Below, in pieces: positions 11,764-63,203 of a stretch of 64,000 bases of DNA. Made by a program: the position numbers and the translations under genes. Location: NCBI GenBank assembly GCA_034509425.1, contig JAVTVJ010000794.1, positions 953,496 through 1,017,495 of the forward strand. The letters are read 5' to 3'. Source of the stretch: Eopsaltria australis. Lineage: Eukaryota > Chordata > Aves > Passeriformes > Petroicidae. A model generated the notes under the pieces. The model worked only from the letters and a program-made list of their open reading frames with translations, had not been told where the DNA came from and made no database searches. The number at the start of each line of letters is the position of its first letter. The first letter of the stretch is position 1.

Positions 11764-12935
11764 CAGAGTCACAGAATAGTTAGGGTTGGAAGGGATCTCA
11801 GGAGATCACCCTGTCCAACTCCTGCACCAAAGTGGGGTCACCTAGAACCAGTGACACTGGAACACATCCAGGTGGGTGTTGAGTGTCTCCAGAGAGGGAG
11901 ACTCCACAACCTCCCCAGGCAGCCTGCTCCAGTGCCAGTCTCAATGTAAAGTTCTTCCTTTTGTTTTAGTTTATGGACATTGCATCTTGTCCCGTTTCTG
12001 GGCACTACCAAAAAAAAAGTCTGGCACTATCCCCTTTGCACCTGCCTTTGACTTATTTATGTGCATTCACAAGATCCCCTCTCAGTCTCCTTGAGAGTAA
12101 ACAGACCCATCTCCCTCAGTGTCTTTTCATGAGAGAGATGCTACAGACCCCTCATCATCCTTGTGATCCTTCTCTGGACCCTCTCCTATATCTCCTTGTC
12201 TTTCTTGAACTGTGGAGACCAGAACTGGGCACAACACTCCAGATATGGCCTCATCAGGGCTGACTAAAAGTGGAAAAATCAGCTTCCTCTACCTGCTAGC
12301 CACACTCTTCCTGGGCCTCCAGGCGACGAGGACACACTGCCAGCTCATTATCAACTTGTCACCCATCTTGGGAAGTCACCCAAAACTTCCAGGTCTTTCT
12401 TAGCAGAGCTGCTCTTCCTTGGGGCAGCCCCATCCTGTGCTGATATTTGGGTTTACTCCTCCCCAGGAGCAGGGCCCTGCACTTGCCCTTGTTGAACCTC
12501 ATTAGGGTTCTCTCCACCCAACTCTCCAGCCTGCCAAGGTCCAGCCAAAAGGCAGCAGAGCCTTCAGGTGTATCAGCCACTTCCCCAGTTTGCATCATCA
12601 GCAAACCTGCTGAGGGGATCCCTTTGCCCAGGTCATTGATAAACAGGTAGAATAAGGTTGGATCCAGTATTGATCCCTGGGGAACACCACTGACTGCAGG
12701 CCTCCAACTGGATTCTACTGCCCTGATCCTGACCCTCTGAGCTCTGCCATTCAGCCCATGCTTGATCCACCTCACTGTCCATTCATCTAACCCACATATC
12801 TTTAGCTTACCTCTAAGGATGTTGTAGGAGATGTCAAAAGCCTTGCTGAAGTCAAGATAGACAACATCCACTGCTCTCCCATCACCAACCCATCCTGCCA
12901 CGGCATCATAGAAGGCTGTCAGATCTGCCATACAA
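11764..12935 (-). mobile_element. CR1 LINE, 5'-truncated, minus strand
   Basis: On the plus strand the element begins with the antisense of a CR1 3' terminus (ACAGAGTCACAGAATAGTT, then GGTTGGAAGGGATCTC). It runs through the antisense C-terminal region and the reverse-transcriptase domain. The 5' end is lost just upstream of the conserved LTAFYD segment, at about 12,935, which is the usual outcome of incomplete CR1 reverse transcription. CR1 is the dominant avian LINE, and its 3' octamer tail is how its own reverse transcriptase recognises template RNA. The coding frame is damaged (see the pseudogene at 12,359-12,976). The 5' edge is approximate. Confidence 0.9.
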
Positions 12936-12976
12936 AAAATTACCTGCTGATGCAGTAGCAGAACACATCTCATCAC
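12359..12976 (-). pseudogene. CR1 reverse transcriptase fragment, disrupted
   Basis: This 205-codon minus-strand frame covers part of the CR1 ORF2 reverse-transcriptase domain. Residues 40-48 read YLDFSKAFD (motif A, holding the first catalytic aspartate) and residues 96-104 read SGVPQGSIL (motif B). Downstream, GKCRALLLGRSKPKYQHRMG matches the CR1 thumb region. The catalytic FADD motif is missing from this frame near residues 122-130. The codons for it are present one base out of phase, while the flanks on both sides are in phase, so a compensating pair of indels crosses the active site. The first 16 or so residues probably come from flanking DNA, not CR1. The product could not be active. 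The family is certain; the exact indel positions are inferred. Confidence 0.85.
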
Positions 12977-15900
12977 TGAAGGTGCCTGGGGTTTCTGCTG
13001 TGTGTAACAAATGAAGAGGAAACAAGTTTGCTATGGGAAAGGTCCTTCTGCTGCTTGTATGGGACTCAGCCAGGCTCAGGGACTCAGCTGCTGCACTCTG
13101 CGGGCATGGGGCGTCATGCAAAGCTTTAATTTTGAACAGCACTTCTTTTCTGCAGTGATATTAGCCAGGGAAGGTCATAACCTGCCCTTACAGTGGTACA
13201 CAAGCAGAGCACTGTTGTTGGTGCCTGGGACAGAAAGGCTTAATCACAGCCCTGGGCAGGTGTCATAATGTTGTGTGGTGGTCCCTGACATACAGGCTGC
13301 CAAAGCCCCAGATTAGATTGTTACATTTCCTCTTATTCAAGATCTATTCTTGTTGCTTTTATCCACAGACTAGAAGATTGACTTAGCTACATGCAGTGCT
13401 TTGTTTCAGAAATAAAGGAAATTGAGATTTATGCTTACGTAGGATGGGAGAGGAGGAGCAAGGGAACACCATTATGTACCTCCCCTGGCTGCATCACCTC
13501 CACCTGTCTCAGGTAGTACCTGGATCCTTCACCTGCAAGGATAAAGCACTGCTGGACATTGGCAACGTCCAGGCTTCACCCCCAAGGACCACATCTGCAA
13601 AGATTCTCAGGCATTGTGAACCCTTTCCACCTAGCTTTTTTAACATTTTTAAGGTTTTTTAAAAAATTATTTGCTTGTTCTTATTTTGTTCTGAATCGTG
13701 CTGTGTACAGAATTGCTAGAAATCTAGGAATTACAGCAAAATAATTGTTTCCCTTGTGTGTGCATGCATGTGTGTATAAGTGAACTTCTACTCCTGATAT
13801 TGTACAAAGCGTTGCTACAGCATACTGGTCTAGATAGAATCATTATGAGCACTGCATAAAATATACATCCTTCCAAATCTAGCATGTATATTGCATTTAT
13901 TCCTGTTACAATGAGATATTGTGACAGTCCAAGAGTTTGGGTTAATTGCTCTCCAGTGCTAACTTGAAGAAAAGGACTATTGTTTTCCCCATCAGATTAT
14001 ACAACTCAACCCCATGACGTGGAACAACGTATTGACTTGACATCGTTTGCCTCAGACTAATTTAGGGTACAAAGCAAAAATATTTGATGTAAGCAATACC
14101 CTAGCTGGCACAATGTTTAGGCTCAGGCATAAAAAGAGCAGAACACATTGAAAAATGTCTGACAGCTGGTATTAATTGAACAGATCCAGGGGATTACACA
14201 AAATTGAGCCAGCCTGAGAAGAACTTCTGCTTCAGTGAAGATGTTCAGTTCTGCTCAAGGGTGATCTGACTGAATGACATGCTAAAAATTTTTGAACAAG
14301 AAAGTCTAATTCCTTCTGCTGCTTTTGCCTAATAGTGGGAGACCTCTGTGCTCTCTATAGCACCAAGCTTAGGAGCAGGACTCATTCTTCTCTGTCCACG
14401 CCTTACAGTTTACAACCAGACCCCCAAAGTTAAAGTTCACAGCCATCCCTGCTAAAGAAATGACAACCTCATTCCACAGTATTTCTAAGGTAATTCACGC
14501 TTTGCTAATAATTCCCAGCTCCTCCCTGGGTCACCAACTCTGTTATCCATAATGCATTCCCCAGGCAATACCACTGACCTCGGTTATTAGCACTTAGATA
14601 GTAGTAGATCGAGGTATTTTCTATACATAACAGTGCACTGACACTAAAACTATGTAAAAAAGAGATATTAAGAAATACCTAGGTTGCAAGATTAAATATT
14701 TACAATGAAGGGATGCCAAACTGAGCAATGTTTTGAGCCGCCTTATTCAGCATATGCAGTATAAAATCATCCTCTTTAATTACAAGACAACATATCCTAC
14801 TTTTGGACCAGACACACAGCCTTCTCTAATATGGAGAGCTCAGCTGCTCTGAATCCTCACTGAAGATGAAGACCAGATGAGGCTCATTTTTCTAGGATCA
14901 GCCTTATTTACATTGCTTTAGGGGATGTCCTAACAGGCCAGATATGGAAATGCTCTGGCAAAGCAGGACAAAGTTGCTGTCCTGGTCAGGTCCCCTTGTC
15001 TTTCATCTGATGGAGCCTCTCCAACTGCCTGCTCCAAACCTTGCTTCTTCCAACTCATGTGAGGATCAGCAAGGTGGTCCACTGGTGACTGCCACCTCTG
15101 CCTGATGCCTGAGAGTCCAACTCCCCAGCCAGGGCAGGCAGTGCCCTGTCCCAGCCTTGTTGAAGGCAGCAGAGAGGTCAGCTGCTCCTGGGCCAGCAGC
15201 TGGAGCTCTGAGCAGCCACAGCATGTCAGCAAGCCTCTGGTGCGTAAGCTGCTCCAGTCTGGACAGATTTTTATGTGAACTCTAAAGACATTCTAAATAA
15301 CCAAGGTTCATCCTCTCTTTATCTCTGTCTCATATTTGGCTCTGATCCTAGGTGTCTTCTAAGAAGGAGTCACCGGTTTCTAGTGATTTCTTTGACCCTG
15401 ACCTCTCTTCTCAAACCAAAATAGCTGATTTTACTGAAAAATTCCAGAAAGACTGTAACAGCTATCCAGTGCGGAGGACTTAAGTTGGAACAGGCTGTCT
15501 GGGAAAGCTGAAATGGGGAGCATAAGCATGCATTGTTTTCTACAGGAGGGTTAGTAAGGTAATTAAGCACATGGTATGCTAGTAGTCATTTATGGTATCT
15601 TTTAAGGAGAGGAGCAGCAGCTGATACTGGGATTTTGGGACTGCTATATAAACAATGGTGATGCACTCTTTCCATTCACATAAGGATTTTTCTAACACCT
15701 CATTAATTTATTAAAATGGGATAGCAAATCTTGAATAAAATAATGGCAGTGATCCCAGAATAATTAACCACAGATGGCAAAGTCTGTTTAGTTAAAAACA
15801 CACACACACAAAACAGGGTACCATTTATTGTGACTGTTGCTGTCATCTCTGAATGTGCATGTTGACTTATTAACGATTTTGGGGCATAGTGAGTGGTTAT

Positions 15901-26036: not shown

Positions 26037-26324
26037 AATGTATAGTGCAAACTTCAACTCTAAAACTTGCAGAAAACATGCAAACTGTGAGGAAGTTATA
26101 ATGCTGTTAACCCCGATGGTGCAGCTGTACGACAGCCGGGAGCAGCCAGACTGGCCCCTGGTCTTCAGTGGTGTCTTGAAGGGAAAGACAGGTGTCTGCC
26201 AAGGGAGGCGGGAACCTCCCTCGGAACGGAGAATATTATCGCCTTCTCTCTGAATTACTGCAACTTTGAAATTGAGGGGCTTTCAGGCAAAGGCATGAGA
26301 AGAGGAGTAACAGTTCTTTACTTG

Positions 26325-35132: not shown

Positions 35133-35503
35133 AGTCTTCTGTGTGGTGTTACCTGTAAAAAAAAAAGGGTATTATTTGCATTTTAAATACAATTTTTACA
35201 TGTCTTTTTAAACACCTATTATATGCAAGGCAAATATAATCAGATGATTACTTTATCAATTATTCTTCAACCAGTTGTGTAGGAAACTCCTCAAGGTTTG
35301 AAGGTTTCTTTCTCAGCTGCCGTATATTAGTCTTCAGCATGATTCGTGAACTTGAATGTTAAACGCTATTTGTGCTCAATGCAGAATTTCCAAGCTGAAG
35401 GAAAACAAAATGCAGGGTAAATATTTTTTTAAAATAGCTTTAAAGCCATGAAAAAATAAAGAAAGCGGCAGCAACAATGTCATCAAAAACACCACTGCCA
35501 CTA

Positions 35504-35548
<45 letters not shown>

Positions 35549-36778
35549 GAAGAAAAAGAAGAAGAAAAAGCAGAAAAAGAGAAGATGAAAGAAGAGAAAA
35601 ATTTGAAAAAAATCTAAACTGAAACAAGAGAAGGGAGATATCCTGTCTGAATATTACCGAGTGTTTCTACCACATGTACCTGGTGTGAACAATGTTTTTT
35701 ATATAGACATACACACAGTTTTTTGGGTTTGTGTTCCTTCTCTCAGTCAGAATGCTACCTATTCATCTTTCTTTCTGAAGAATATGCTTGTAAGTATTCA
35801 GGAGCAATTTTTTACTTTGTAAAAAAGTTGTAAATGGACCACCCTTCCTCGCCCCTAAGTTTAAGAACATACTATGAAATTGTATTATAAAATGTGATAT
35901 GGGATCAGTCAAAATAATTCATCTGTATTAAAGATCTCATTTGTAAAACTGATATTTTAAAATGTTTGTAAGACAGTAAAAAAGAAATTACTTATAAAAA
36001 CTAATTTTAAAAGATTTAATGCCAAAAGTTGTTGAAACAATTTCTAGCCAATTTTCTATCACAGCCCTATTGCTGTGTTGTTTGAATAACTCTGAAATGT
36101 ACTCACGTTTGCAACACTCTTGTCACAAAAGGGACGTTGTTATTCTCGTTTCACTGAGTTTTCACGTATGTGCTTTCAAGGAAGCACAAATACATTGCTT
36201 TTAGTCTAGAGATATGAGACAGCTGTGGTGAAGTGGGGTTTCTCATACTCCAGTTCCAACTGTCAGAGAGCTTTCCTGAGAGGGATTTTGTTCTAAGTAT
36301 GGGGAGCATATATTTGGCAACGTAAGGGCAGATTTGATTCATCTTCATAATGGCTAAAATTTCTACTCTGGTTACTGTTCAATGGTTTTCATTGCCAAGC
36401 ACTATCTTGCGGGCCCCATCAACACTTGCTGGATTAGCATTAATGCAGAGTTTGGATAATCCTAGAGACTGAACTGGTATGTCACTCTTTCAGGTATCTA
36501 AGTGCTTCAGTGAGAAGGCTGTGTTTTAGATTACACATTTTTCTAGTCAGACACTTGCATCTTCTACAACACCAGCTGTGGTACCACAGTGACTTCGTAA
36601 CTAGCTACAAGTATTCGAGGACAACTAGAGTCACAAATAAGGGCTACCTGACTTTTTTTTCTACTCATCTAGGTGTAAATTGAAATGCAGACAGAGAACA
36701 GAGAAGCTGTCCTGGAAGATGATAAATTTGTTTCCTGTGTGCTTCAGCATGATCCTCATTTAACATGATGCTTCCATG
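35133..36778. other. gene-free stretch with TAA microsatellite
   Basis: No exon is recognised. It holds the TAA microsatellite and adjoining A/G-rich tract at 35.5 kb. The rest is AT-rich single-copy-looking DNA up to the duplicated flank at 36,779. Confidence 0.55.
35508..35548. repeat. (TAA)n microsatellite
   Basis: About 13-14 uninterrupted TAA units are followed directly by a purine-rich stretch (AGAAGAAAAAG pattern) to about 35,615. The tract translates antisense as a poly-leucine run, so the open frame there is not a gene. Confidence 0.95.
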
Positions 36779-36961
36779 GGTAAAATTAGCAGAGTCAGCT
36801 CATTCCACAGCTCAGCCTTCCATAAATGTAGCATTGCCATGTATCCTTCAAAGACTAGTTTCACTTCAGCATAATTTCTATTCCTGATTAGGGTATTAAC
36901 TGAGTTGTTGAAACTTCTAAAGTGGATAGGAAACTGCTTTGACTTCTCAGCTCTACAGTGT
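36779..36961 (+). repeat. 183-bp flank duplication, left copy
   Basis: This segment is repeated at 37,576-37,758, on the other side of the LTR at 36,959-37,575. The copies differ at five positions (about 97% identity), all transitions, with C or G in this copy and T or A in the other. The last three bases (TGT) overlap the LTR terminus and may match by chance. See the first finding. Confidence 0.95.
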
Positions 36962-37575
36962 CACCGTCCGCCTTCTGTCCGGTGGTCTGGAGGGTGCAGT
37001 ACAAAGGTGGGTGCGACGGAGGGTTCCTGGTGGCCAGCCGGGTTCCCAGTCGCCGGGAGTTCCTTTCCCTTGCTCAATGCCTGCAGCTCCCAGTAAGGCA
37101 AATAATGTTGCGCACTGCTAGCTGAAAGGGGGATCTTCCGACTGGGTAAGAGAGACACTGTAGCCGATGGACTTGCAGCACTCTGAGGCACCAGAGTCGG
37201 AAGACCCCGAGCCCTCGGTGACACAGCCTTTTATTGTACAGGGTAAACCAATCACAGAGCGGCTCGGGGGAGGAACTAGGGAGGAGCAAGGGGTAAGGAA
37301 CCAACCAGGGAAGCGAGGGGGAGGAGCGGGGATAACAGACAACGGAACCATACAATCAACAACCGAGTAAACCAGAACTTTCTAGAACATGGGGGTGGCT
37401 GACTACTGATGGGCAGGTGGTGCTAACCAATCAGCCTGCGGGGCGTCCACTTGTCCAAGGTCCATCCTCCGTGGGACCAAACCAAGGCTTTGCCCCGCCT
37501 CAGGGAAGTTCTTCGTCATTCCCCCAGGGCTTCTTTAATGGAAAAGTCTCTTGGGACACCTGCACCACCGCCACA
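36959..37575 (-). mobile_element. solo LTR, family B, flanked by a 180-bp direct repeat
   Basis: This LTR is 617 bp long. On the minus strand it starts TGTGGCGGTGG at 37,575 and ends ACGGTGACA at 36,959. It has a perfect heat-shock-like motif (antisense at 37,375-37,387), a CCAAT-type GATTGGTTT (antisense near 37,246), AATAAAAGG (antisense at 37,230-37,235) and a GC-rich R/U5. It belongs with the units at 33.9 and 34.4 kb. There is no ordinary 4-6 bp target duplication; instead each end abuts one copy of a stretch of about 180 bp of host-like DNA. No proviral interior is present. Confidence 0.8.
37375..37387. promoter_or_regulatory. heat-shock-element-like motif in LTR family B
   Basis: The bases read GAACTTTCTAGAA, which is a perfect GAAnnTTCnnGAA array at the same U3 position as in the LTR at 34,384-35,126. 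Function is inferred. Confidence 0.55.
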
Positions 37576-37758
37576 GGTAAAATTAGCAGAGTCAGCTCAT
37601 TCCACAGCTCAGCTTTCCATAAATGTAGCATTGCCATGTATTCTTCAAAGACTAGTTTCACTTCAGCATAATTTCTATTCCTGATTAGGGTATTAACTGA
37701 GTTGTTGAAACTTCTAAAGTAGATAGGAAACTGCTTTGATTTCTCAGCTCTATAGTGT
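37576..37758 (+). repeat. 183-bp flank duplication, right copy
   Basis: This is the second copy of the segment at 36,779-36,961, starting at the base after the LTR terminus. Beyond 37,758 the sequence (ACGTTTTACTG) has no counterpart after the left copy, where the LTR begins. Differences from the left copy are T for C at four sites and A for G at one. Confidence 0.95.
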
Positions 37759-42496: not shown

Positions 42497-42777
42497 GAAA
42501 CTGGCCTGGTTTGAAAGACAGGTGTCTGTTAAGGAAGGCAGGAGCCTCCCTTGGAATGGGAAACTGTAACCCCTCTTCCTCCGAATTATTATGAATTTGA
42601 AATCAAGAGGCTCTCAGGCAAAGATATGGGAATAGGAATAACAGTTCTTTACTAATATCTAAAACAAAGCTAACAAATAACAACAGCTATGGCGTTAACC
42701 AACAAACAGAACCAGGAACCCAGTGGCAGCCTGCTCGGCTTCAGGCACCTTTCCCTTCGGTGCAGTTCCAGTCACAG

Positions 42778-46654: not shown

Positions 46655-47101
46655 ATAATATCTTTATTGATGATCTGGATAAGGAGATCAAGGGCACCCT
46701 CAGTCTGTTTGCAGGTGACAGCAAGTTGGGTGGGAGTGTTGATCTGCTGGAGGGCAGGAAGGCTCTACAGAGGGATCTGGACAGGCTGGATTGATGGGCC
46801 AAAGCCAATTGTGTGATGTTCAACAAGACCCAGTGCTGGGTCCTGACCTGGAGTCACAACAACCCCAGGCAATGCCACAGGCTGGGACAGAGTGGCTGGA
46901 AAGGAGCTGGGGGTGCTGGTGACAGCAGCTGAACATGAGCCAGGGTGTGCCCAGGGGGCCAAGAAGGCCAATGGCATCCTGGCCTGGATCAGCAATGGTG
47001 TGGCCAACAGGAGCAGGGCAGGGATTGTCCCCCTGTGCTGGGCACTGGTGAGGCCACACCTCGAGTGCTGTGTCCAGTTCTGGGCCCTCAGTGCAAGAAA
47101 G

Positions 47102-48012
47102 ACATTTGTTATGATCTAATTATTAAAGTTCTTTAGAGATACCTCTGCCTGAATTAAGGTACAAGCGAGACCATATGCCAATCAATAGCATGAGTTTTAT
47201 TTGATAGTAAATATGAGAGAGAGAGAGAGAAGAAGAGAGAGAAAAGAGGGAGTAGGGGGAAATAAGAGAGAGAGAGAAGAAAAGAGAGAAAAGAGAGAGT
47301 AGGGAGAAAGATGGGGGGGGCAGAGAGGGACAGGGACAAAAAGGTATCACCACTCCGTGGGTCCTGCTGGTGTTCTGATGTCCTCTTCAGCTGGTCTCGG
47401 TGGTGGAAGTCCCCCCAAAAGCACAGAATGCAATGGGTTGATATACACTCAGGCCAGGTGGAAATGTCTGGGCATGTCCCCCCGGGGGAGGGGGCAGCCT
47501 CTAGCAGCAGACTCTGCTTGCATCACGTGCAGTCCTGTGGTGCAAGGCGTCTGGGGGGCACTTTGGGGGGTCTGTGATAGATTGTGACTCCCCCTCAGCT
47601 GCCTCTCACGTGAGAGTCTCATGGATGTGGCTTGTGGGGTTGGGGAGGCTTCACAGCTGGGCCAGTTTGTGTACTGGAGGATGCGTGTGTATTGCCTCTG
47701 ACCAGAGGTTACGCCATCCTCCTCCCCCCTTCAGCTGGGGGCTAAGACTGTGCAAACTTGGCTTCTGTGAGCTGTGCTTTGTCCCCCACCCCAAACTCAG
47801 CCAGAAGCGATTCTCACTACAGCTGGTGACTTCAGCCTCTGTGGACAAATTCCTTTCCCTGAGATGATTGAACAATAGGCTTTTCCCTTTATCTAATCTC
47901 AGCAGTTTGACTCAGTTCAAAGTCCCAGTCAGGTATCTTCAGGGAAGCTTCTCTGATCAAAACTTCATATCAATGTTTGAGGCATGAACTGTTTTCAGTC
48001 TCTGACAACATT
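47102..48012 (-). mobile_element. solo LTR nested in CR1, ACATT target duplication
   Basis: The LTR occupies 47,107-48,007 (901 bp). On the plus strand it begins TGTTATGATC and ends CTCTGACA, and it is bracketed by the exact 5-bp duplication ACATT (47,102-47,106 and 48,008-48,012). AATAAA on the minus strand (antisense at 47,196-47,201), about 90 bp from the left end, sets the orientation. It contains a long GA-rich tract. Because it interrupts a CR1, it is younger than that CR1. It is not obviously related to the other LTRs here. Confidence 0.93.
47214..47310. repeat. GA-rich polypurine tract inside the nested LTR
   Basis: Nearly 100 bp of GAGAGA and GAAAAGAG units with very few pyrimidines lie in the left part of the LTR. 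Long polypurine stretches can adopt triplex (H-DNA) structure. Length variation between individuals is likely. Confidence 0.9.
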
Positions 48013-50956: not shown

Positions 50957-52341
50957 CTGACCTGTCAACCTCCACTTTGTGCCTGGGAAGATCATGGAAC
51001 AAATCCTCCTGCAAGCTGTGCTAAGGCCCATGGAGGACAGGGAGGTGTTTCAAGACACCAGCACAGCTTCACCAAGGGCAAGTCCTGCCTGACCAACCCA
51101 GTGATTTTCTGTGGTGGACTGACTGCATCAGTGGACAAGGGAACAGCTGTGGATGTCCTGGGCTTCTGTAAATCCTGCTCTCTAAATTGGAGAGAGATGG
51201 ATTTGAGAAGTGGGCTGTTAGATGGAAAAGAAATTGGTTGGATGGTCACATCCAGAGGGGTCATGGTCAGAGTCCCAATGGACATCAGTGACAAGTGGTG
51301 CCCTCAGGGGTCTGTACTGGGACCAGTGTTTATTTACTGTCTTCATCAGTGATGTAGACAGAGGGGTCGAGTGTACCCTCAGAAAATTTGCAGGTGACCC
51401 CAAGCTGAGAGGTGCTGTTGACACACTTGAAGGATGGGATGCTATCCAGAGGGACCTGGACAAACTATTAAAGTGGGAATCTCAAGAACTGTAACAGGTC
51501 CAAGTGCATGGTGCCTGTACCTGGGTTAGGGCAACCCCCAATATCAACACAGTCTGGGAGATGAAGGGATTGAGAGCAGCCTTGGGGAGTAGGACTTGTG
51601 GTGATGGTGGATGGAAAGATGGGCATGATCCAACAATGAGGGCTTGAAGCCCAGAAAGCCAATAAGTAGTAAAGTAGGATGCAAATTGCCTTTAATTATT
51701 CCTGGTGAAGTGGAAAATTTCTATAGTTAATCCTTTGGTTTTTCAAAATCCAAAATACAGTTAATCGTTGGCTGTATCAAGAACTGTGTCCAGAGGATCA
51801 TGGTACATGATTCTGCCTCTCTATTCCTCTCTGGTGAGATCTCACCTGGAGTTTTGCATCCAGCTCTGGGGTTCTTAGCCCAGAAAAGGCGTGGACATGT
51901 TGAAGGGCCACAGAAATGATTAGAGGGCTGAAATACCTTCCATATGAAGACATGTTGAGATTTGGATTTGTTCAGCCTGGAGAAGAGACGGCTCCAGGGA
52001 GATCTTTTTGCAGCTTTCCAATACTTGCAGGGGGCTTGTGAGAAAGATGAGGACAGATTTTTTTAGCAGGGCTTGTTGTGTACAAGGGGTAATGGTTTTA
52101 AACTAAAAGAAGGTAGATGGATTCTAGAGGTAAGGAAGAGATTTATTACAATGAAGGTGGTAAAACACTGGAACAAGTTACCCAGAAAGGTGACCTATTC
52201 CTGGGAATATTTAAGGTAAAGCTGAATGGGACTCTCAGCAACCCGATTTAGTTGAAGATGTCCTTGGTAATTGTTGGTAGATTTAGTTTAGTCTACCTTT
52301 AAAAGTCATTTCCAACCCAAACTATTCTGTGACTCTGTAGT
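50957..52341 (+). mobile_element. CR1 LINE, plus strand, with internal insertion
   Basis: This is a 5'-truncated CR1 starting in the region upstream of reverse transcriptase (GGAAGATCATGGAACAAATC near 50,986). It encodes [11 protein letters not shown] and ASVDKG, then a damaged motif A region. Later comes a separate frame with FISDVDRGVECTLRKFAGD (FAGD instead of FADD), followed by GAVDTLEGWDAIQRDLDK. The C-terminal region and 3' untranslated region follow, ending ATTCTGTGACTCTGTAG at 52,341. About 100 bp of non-CR1 sequence (roughly 51,662-51,764) interrupt it between GCCCAGAAAGCCAA and CGTTGGCTGTATC. Multiple frameshifts make it inactive. Confidence 0.92.
51661..51741 (+). repeat. 80-bp sequence recurring inside a CR1, copy 2
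   Basis: This is the counterpart of 50,291-50,371, embedded in the CR1 at 50,957-52,341. The whole foreign insert runs to about 51,764 and is edged by the trinucleotide AAT on both sides. The extra bases after 51,741 (TTCAAAATCCAAAATACAG) do not match copy 1. Confidence 0.8.
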
Positions 52342-55839: not shown

Positions 55840-56590
55840 CTGGGCTAGAGGGCAATCCAGAGGGACCTGGACAGGCTTAGGAAGTAGGCCTGTGTGAAAC
55901 TGATGGAGTTCAACAAGGTCAAGTGCAAGGTCCATCAGCTGAGTTGGGGTAATCCCAAGCACAAATACAGGCTGAGTGGAGAATGGATTGTGAGCAGTCC
56001 TGGGGAGAAGGACTTGGGGGTGTTGGTGAGGGAGAAGCTCAGCATGATCCAGCAAAGTATGATTGCAGATCAGAAAGCCAGTCTGGGCTACATCCAAAGC
56101 AGCGTGGCCAGCAGGGCGAGGGAGGAGATTCTGCCCTTCTGCTCTGCTCTGCTGACACCCCACCTGGAGTGCTGCATCCAGCTCTGGGGTTCCCAATGTA
56201 AGAATGACATGGACCTGTTTGAGCAGATCCTAAGGTGGCTGGAAGATTATCTGAGGGCTGGAGAACCTTTCCAATGGAGACAGGATGACAGAGCCTGTAC
56301 AGGCTGGAGAAGAGAATGCTCTTGGTAGAGACCTTACAGCACTTCCCAGTACAAGAAGAGAGACTGTAGGAAAGCTGGAGAGGGGCTTTTAACAAGGGCA
56401 TGTAGTGAGAGGTCAAAAGGGAATGGTTTTAAACTAAAAGAGGGTAGATAGATGTTAGGAAGAAATTTTTTTCTGCGAGAGTGGTAAGGCACAGATACAT
56501 GTTGCCCCGGGAAGTTGTCAGTGTCCATCCCTGGAACTGTTCAACATCAGGTTGGATAGGGCCAACCCAAACCATTTTATGATTCTTAGA
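55840..56590 (+). mobile_element. CR1 LINE 3' portion, plus strand
   Basis: The CR1 begins just after the reverse-transcriptase active site (AGGGCAATCCAGAGGGACCT near 55,850). It runs through the C-terminal coding region and 3' untranslated region to TTTTATGATTCTTA. A 144-codon frame at 55,894-56,328 keeps the thumb and C-terminal signature: EFNKVKCKV, EKDLGVLVREKL, SVASRAREEILPFCSAL and PHLECCIQLWGS. The frame is lost before the normal CR1 C terminus, and catalytic motifs are absent through 5' truncation. Confidence 0.92.
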
Positions 56591-62384: not shown

Positions 62385-63203
62385 TCCTGGACCAGCTTGA
62401 GAAGTGGGCCCATGGGAGTCTCAAGCAATTTAATGGGACCAAATGCAAGGTGCTGCACCTGGGTTGGGTCAGTAGCTGGTATCAACATAGGCTAGGGATG
62501 AACAGATCTAGAGCAGCCCTTGCCAAGAAGGACTTGGGGGTGCTGGTGAGTGAAAAGTTGGACATGACCCAGCCATTGGCACTTACAGCCCAGAGAGGCA
62601 AACATATCCTGGGCTGCATCCAGAGCAGTGTGGGCAGCAGGGCCAGGGAGGGGATTCTGCCCCTCTGCTCTGCTCTGGTGAGACCCCACCTGCAGTGCTG
62701 CATCAGCTCTGGGGCCCCATGATGAGGAGGGACATCGACCTGGCGGAGTGAGCCCAGAGGAAGACCACCAAGATAAAGGGATGGAACACATCTCCTGTGA
62801 GGAAATGCTGAGAGAGTTGAGTTTGTACAGCCTGGAAAAGAAAAGCTGACATAATTGTGGCCTTCCAGTACCTGAAAAGAATCAACAAGGCAAATGGAGA
62901 GAGACTCTTCACAAGGGCATGTAGTGACAGGAGAAGTGAAAATGGTTTCAAAATGAAAGAAAGTAGGTTTAGATTAAGTATTAGGAAAAAGTTAGAAAGA
63001 ATTCTTTACTGCGAGGGTGGTGAGGCACTTGAACAGGTTGCCCAGAGATGTTGCAGATGCCCCATCCCTAGAAGTGTTTAAAGCCAGGTTAGATGGAGCT
63101 TTGATCAACTGATCTAGTGGAAGATATCCCAGCCCCTAGCAGAGGGCTGGAACTAGATGATCTTTAAGGTCCCTGGTCATTCCATGATCCTATGAATCTA
63201 TGA
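62385..63203 (+). mobile_element. CR1 LINE 3' portion, plus strand
   Basis: This 5'-truncated CR1 starts near TCCTGGACCAGCTTGAGAAG. The open frame 62,198-62,722 enters it from flanking DNA and then reads EKWAHGSLKQFNGTKCKVLHLGW, KKDLGVLVSEKLDMTQ, GCIQSSVGSRAREGILPLCSALVRPHL and CCISSGAP, the CR1 thumb and C-terminal region. A frameshift near 62,705 ends the match. The 3' untranslated region continues to an ATGATCCTATGAATCTATGA tail at about 63,203. It is an inactive remnant. Confidence 0.92.

Follow-up and report, generated by a model that had tools for sequence, protein, structure and literature searches.

A solo LTR flanked by a duplicated 180-bp host segment in Eopsaltria australis, the probable trace of an aberrant retroviral integration

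The stretch that we analyzed (here called the window) comprises the last 64 kb of contig C736, in an assembly of 1.17 Gb and 5,919 contigs. It contains a solo long terminal repeat (LTR) whose two termini, TG and CA, are each adjoined by a long direct repeat of host DNA, 180 bp at 97% identity (Table 1). An initial annotation of the window had described a solo LTR flanked by a long duplication with its edges at the LTR ends, and this description was upheld by mechanical repeat detection, which returned a direct repeat at 36774-36961 and 37571-37758, and by alignment of the LTR family. We consider the locus to be, with good probability, the scar of one aberrant retroviral integration that left a long target site duplication (TSD).

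Table 1. Features of the duplicated locus, in window coordinates
Feature	Position	Strand	Basis
Left copy of duplicated host segment, 180 bp	36779-36958		Repeat comparison; two matches in assembly
Solo LTR, 617 bp, TGTC...CACA on + strand	36959-37575	- (viral sense)	Family alignment and edges
Right copy of duplicated host segment, 180 bp, differing from the left one at 5 positions	37576-37755		Repeat comparison
Host TGT after the right copy, the same three bases with which the LTR opens (36959-36961)	37756-37758		Sequence comparison

The exact extent of the duplication depends on where the LTR begins. The initial annotation had the TG start directly after 36,961, at 36962, which made the duplicated segment 183 bp long. 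All 39 other aligned loci of the family, however, start with TGT at the base matching 36959, and 38 of the 39 end with CACA at the base matching 37575 (L009 ends with CACG); the 6-bp repeats of other family copies adjoin these same LTR edges. The host part of the duplication is therefore 180 bp, and while the reported identity of about 97% holds, the reported length does not: the TGT belongs to the LTR on the left and to the host on the right, a 3-bp microhomology that is the source of the 180/183-bp ambiguity. The U5 end of the solo LTR lies on the left and the U3 end on the right, its minus sense being given by protease and reverse-transcriptase open reading frames on the minus strand of the L071 provirus, whose LTRs are oriented as the one in the window. 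In the 1.17-Gb assembly, the 180-bp segment is matched twice, both times at this locus. The repeat is thus neither an interspersed element nor a chance similarity, and we discarded the idea that the segment is part of an interspersed repeat. A search of the assembly with the same segment found no other version of the locus on another contig.

For the purpose of establishing how this retrovirus normally integrates, we compared the LTR with its relatives in the assembly. The search with the LTR itself gave at least 41 matches, with 40 of 1,470 first-look candidates scored, and other queries gave 1,125-1,853 first-look candidates each, 40 again being scored per query; judged by these counts, the family is large. 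The 70 loci examined reduced to 64 distinct copies, the window's included, after removal of L021 and L022 (the window copy itself), L043, L044 and L050 (places fetched twice) and L041, which equals L040. Among the 63 others, a script assigned a provirus interior on a side to 25 and three were excluded by eye (L009, L032 and L046), leaving 35 solo-like copies. Of these 35, 31 carry a flanking repeat in which 5-6 of the 6 bases agree, with 24 of the 31 matching at all six (the target-repeat analysis covered 33 of the 35). The four exceptions were L003 (4/6), L004 (3/6), L060 (a repeat of 5 bp, displaced by one base) and L051, whose left end is truncated and whose flanks match at 1/6. In addition, all eight LTR pairs that bound proviruses matched at 6/6, two of these pairs representing the same insertion site. 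Taken together, the solo-like copies and the provirus pairs establish a 6-bp TSD as the rule of the family. The window LTR is the solo LTR of an endogenous retrovirus, whose kin bound proviruses with retroviral pol: protease and reverse-transcriptase domains were matched in a single 1.7-kb piece from the interior of one provirus, and two open reading frames of the gag region gave no Pfam match. Betaretrovirus-like (ERVK) elements are recognized by a 6-bp TSD, a lysine-tRNA-type primer binding site and reverse-transcriptase phylogeny; of these traits, the 6-bp TSD is present in the family.

Against this rule, the window LTR has CTACAG as its left flank and GGTAAA as its right flank, which match at 1/6, and the 6-bp repeat is absent from its edges. 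The initial annotation was therefore right that ordinary integration cannot explain the duplication, as this family makes 6 bp. Considering that the 6-bp repeat is missing and that the LTR sits exactly on the edges of the long repeat, the duplication was most likely formed together with the LTR junctions or by way of them. The termini themselves are informative as well. Unprocessed linear viral DNA would carry extra terminal bases, which 3' processing removes. In the proviral copies that we inspected, the interior-side bases beside the LTR are GC at the U5 side (9 of 11) and TC at the U3 side (9 of 10), whereas the same positions at the window joins hold AG and GG, which are accounted for by the host segment. 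In other words, the interior-type dinucleotides are absent and both joins lie at processed termini; both outer ends of the LTR are complete. These joins at processed TG and CA ends point to integrase at one or both ends.

From the observed structure, termini and family rule we infer an order of events and the enzymes involved. The two ends of one viral DNA would have been joined to the host at sites separated by 180 bp and not by 6, staggered so as to duplicate the sequence between them; repair would then have copied the 180-bp interval, and later recombination between the two LTRs of the provirus would have removed the interior and left the solo LTR. Two variants can be envisaged. In the first, end-primed synthesis, integrase would have joined the U3 end to the host where the right copy has its left edge, the 3' end of U5 would have primed host synthesis at the nearby TGT and copied 180 bp leftwards, and the copied end would have been joined by recombination, following the model of PMC5041404. 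In the second, integrase would have joined both ends 180 bp apart, and strand-displacing repair would have filled in the interval. The U5 end and the host share TGT just where priming would start (a coincidence with a probability of roughly 1/64 for each end), and this 3-bp match slightly favours end-primed synthesis, whereas the untruncated LTR ends slightly favour two integrase joins. A target-motif score may also count weakly against end-primed synthesis: the edge opposite to the one that it needs reached the 93rd percentile, as compared to the 67th, in a weak, in-sample comparison with window positions. As a variation on two integrase joins, a normal intasome with intact ends may have joined opposite strands at a distance of about one nucleosome repeat (180 bp), such as on DNA held by adjacent nucleosomes. 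We hold this to be unlikely; if true, long TSDs would be a regular minor product of integration and not a sign of damaged ends or inhibited integrase. What speaks against a long TSD altogether is that the 35 other solo-like copies provide no second example, as none of them had a long flank repeat adjoining the LTR (300 bp of flank were compared for L052-L070, where longer repeats would be missed). At L002, a flank repeat was seen away from the LTR edges and disappeared under a stricter comparison.

Long TSDs at HERV-K (HML-2) LTRs were reportedly a subject of Mamedov et al. in 2004. Long retroviral TSDs have already been published, and the window locus is a further case of that kind. For HML-2 LTRs, putative TSDs of 61, 96, 111, 206, 250 and 450 bp are listed (Kahyo et al. 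2017, PMC5488345); these are 6 of 451 putative TSDs that exceed 50 bp, two of them were checked against sequenced empty alleles, and according to the authors some of the long repeats could be later rearrangements. The 206-bp entry may in fact be a piece of a second HERV-K interior, as such a piece, also of 206 bp, is listed at that locus in PMC3625200. The HML-2 cases resemble ours in that a family with normally short TSDs (5-6 bp) has an LTR between near-identical direct repeats, there of 61-450 bp, and in that several of them are also solo LTRs (PMC5488345). They differ in that they are young human loci, polymorphic in part, for which two empty alleles were sequenced, while the window locus is avian and its copies have diverged by 2.8%. 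Also similar is a 273-bp duplication reported for 1 of 15 XMRV integrations in cultured cells, which was ascribed to uncoordinated end joining (PMC2857682). As in the window, the duplication measures a few hundred base pairs, and it came from a single integration event; unlike the window LTR, with its complete ends, the XMRV provirus had lost 5 bp, including CA, at its U3 end, and the TSD of its family is 4 bp and not 6 bp. Finally, aberrant HIV-1 and ASLV integrations are described with one integrase-joined and one host-joined end, and those of HIV with host duplications of hundreds to thousands of base pairs (PMC5041404). The mechanism proposed there starts from the viral 3' end that was left unjoined and that primes synthesis on host DNA close by. 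The priming site is usually a short homology, comparable to the TGT in the window. Those events, however, came from mutant or inhibited integrase or from mutated viral ends, and the aberrant end was often truncated (PMC5041404), while both outer LTR ends in the window are complete.

This documented route to a long TSD by uncoordinated integration (PMC5488345, PMC2857682, PMC5041404) was missing from the explanations listed in the initial annotation, although one of them, capture of LTR DNA at a double-strand break, comes close to it in outcome. Among the alternatives to a long TSD, the one that fares best starts from two insertions of the same family and orientation, 180 bp apart on different haplotypes, which recombined unequally through their LTRs. 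It predicts exactly the structure seen, the missing 6-bp repeat included, and the 2.8% divergence is not far beyond that of haplotypes or recent duplicates, single-site copies on different contigs differing by up to about 2%. We still judge it improbable, because two rare neighbouring insertions would have to coexist as alternative alleles: with approximately 1,500 unverified candidates in 1.17 Gb, a rough estimate is 0.2 same-orientation pairs within 180 bp over the history of the family. The left edge is, moreover, an unremarkable target, at the 67th percentile in-sample. When L005 served as one parent, tests for a mosaic LTR yielded p = 0.003 and 0.012, but pairs among L002, L003 and L004, the nearest relatives, yielded p = 0.131, 0.069 and 0.205, and 11 of 50 other members used as controls (50 of the 63 had enough informative sites) reached p < 0.05. 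We therefore set LTR mosaicism aside as uninformative on recombination between two insertions.

An assembly error that joined two haplotypes seems to us quite improbable. Near-identical loci do occur on separate contigs (C5312, C1553 and C1075; C383 and C20), so that uncollapsed haplotypes are possible. A wrong join, however, would have had to hit the exact LTR terminus, unless insertions at two different places are real; there are 5 differences between the copies over 180 positions, and no other version of the locus turned up in the assembly. The contigs in question gave two observations of their own. At a site with the TSD TTGGCC, C1075 has a solo LTR (L019), whereas C5312 (L010/L012) and C1553 (L011/L013) have a provirus; with outer flanks 98.1-99.8% identical across the three contigs, the site may have two alleles, one a provirus and one a solo LTR, or may have been copied in a recent segmental duplication. 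L040 on C383 and L041 on C20 are identical throughout the LTR and in the 40 bp that flank it at either end, and likely reflect a haplotype or a duplicate contig in the assembly.

It is very improbable, in our view, that the duplication is older than the LTR or stems from a segmental-duplication rearrangement, even though such a pseudo-TSD model has been published for similar human loci (PMC5488345). The LTR would have had to land exactly on the junction of the repeat, and no further copy of the segment was found in the assembly. Insertion into a pre-existing tandem repeat would have left a 6-bp repeat at the LTR edges and, as none is present there, we rejected it; the missing repeat and the exact TG and CA ends argue against both such an insertion and end-joined capture. 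Capture by end joining at a double-strand break with wide staggers, one of the explanations listed in the initial annotation, has very little left to recommend it: break repair has been held responsible for four non-classical HERV-K insertions, three of which show microhomology, but all four were truncated and accompanied by deletions of host DNA (PMC3625200), while the window LTR has complete outer ends that lack the extra terminal dinucleotides of unprocessed viral DNA, and its processed TG and CA joins point to integrase.

We also analyzed the differences between the two copies. Comparison of the two 183-bp segments confirmed five differences, at 36817, 36845, 36924, 36943 and 36956 of the left copy, with C or G always on the left and T or A on the right. 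All are transitions (C on the left against T on the right in four cases, G against A in one). The one-sided pattern is not significant (two-sided p = 0.0625), which leaves the earlier suggestion of biased gene conversion, as well as editing, unsupported. The left copy contains no CpG, and CpG decay was therefore not the cause of the differences. The divergence of the copies, 5/180 or 2.8% (CI 0.9-6.4%), can be compared with that of the eight provirus LTR pairs, which differ by 0.65-2.3% over all sites and by 0.2-1.1% without CpG-prone columns: as a point estimate it exceeds all eight, and its interval overlaps theirs. The terminal branch of the window LTR measures 0.055, or 0.043 without CpG-prone columns. 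The separate dating of LTR and duplication that had been proposed yielded relative ages. As the terminal branch gives only an upper bound on the age of the insertion, a duplication formed at insertion and one formed afterwards both fit.

With both outer ends of its LTR intact, the locus is an avian addition to the short list of long TSDs; among the titles and abstract openings listed from the open-licence literature, we found no title on such a case in birds. A survey of bird solo LTRs sought repeats of 4-6 bp within 10-20 bp of the ends (PMC11009239), and would probably have counted a locus like this one as having no TSD. Looking for long adjoining repeats at solo LTRs classed as TSD-less would gauge how frequent uncoordinated integration is in the germ line.

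Elsewhere in the window, Rfam gave 0 matches, and a weak RVT_1 match, just below the Pfam cut-off, lies at 12362-13030 on the minus strand. Four stretches (46979-47074, 51765-51860, 56083-56178 and 62609-62704) share a 96-nt motif and are 60-90% alike; together with the RVT_1 match, we take them to be fragments of CR1-like LINEs. Matching stretches, collinear and 77-80% alike, occur as two pairs 16.3 kb apart at 26183-26322 and 42513-42653, and are probably two copies of an unnamed interspersed repeat. Finally, a purine-rich tandem repeat with two copies of a 47-bp unit is located at 47218-47309, and 35502-35601 consists of a (TAA)n tract followed by purine-rich repeats.
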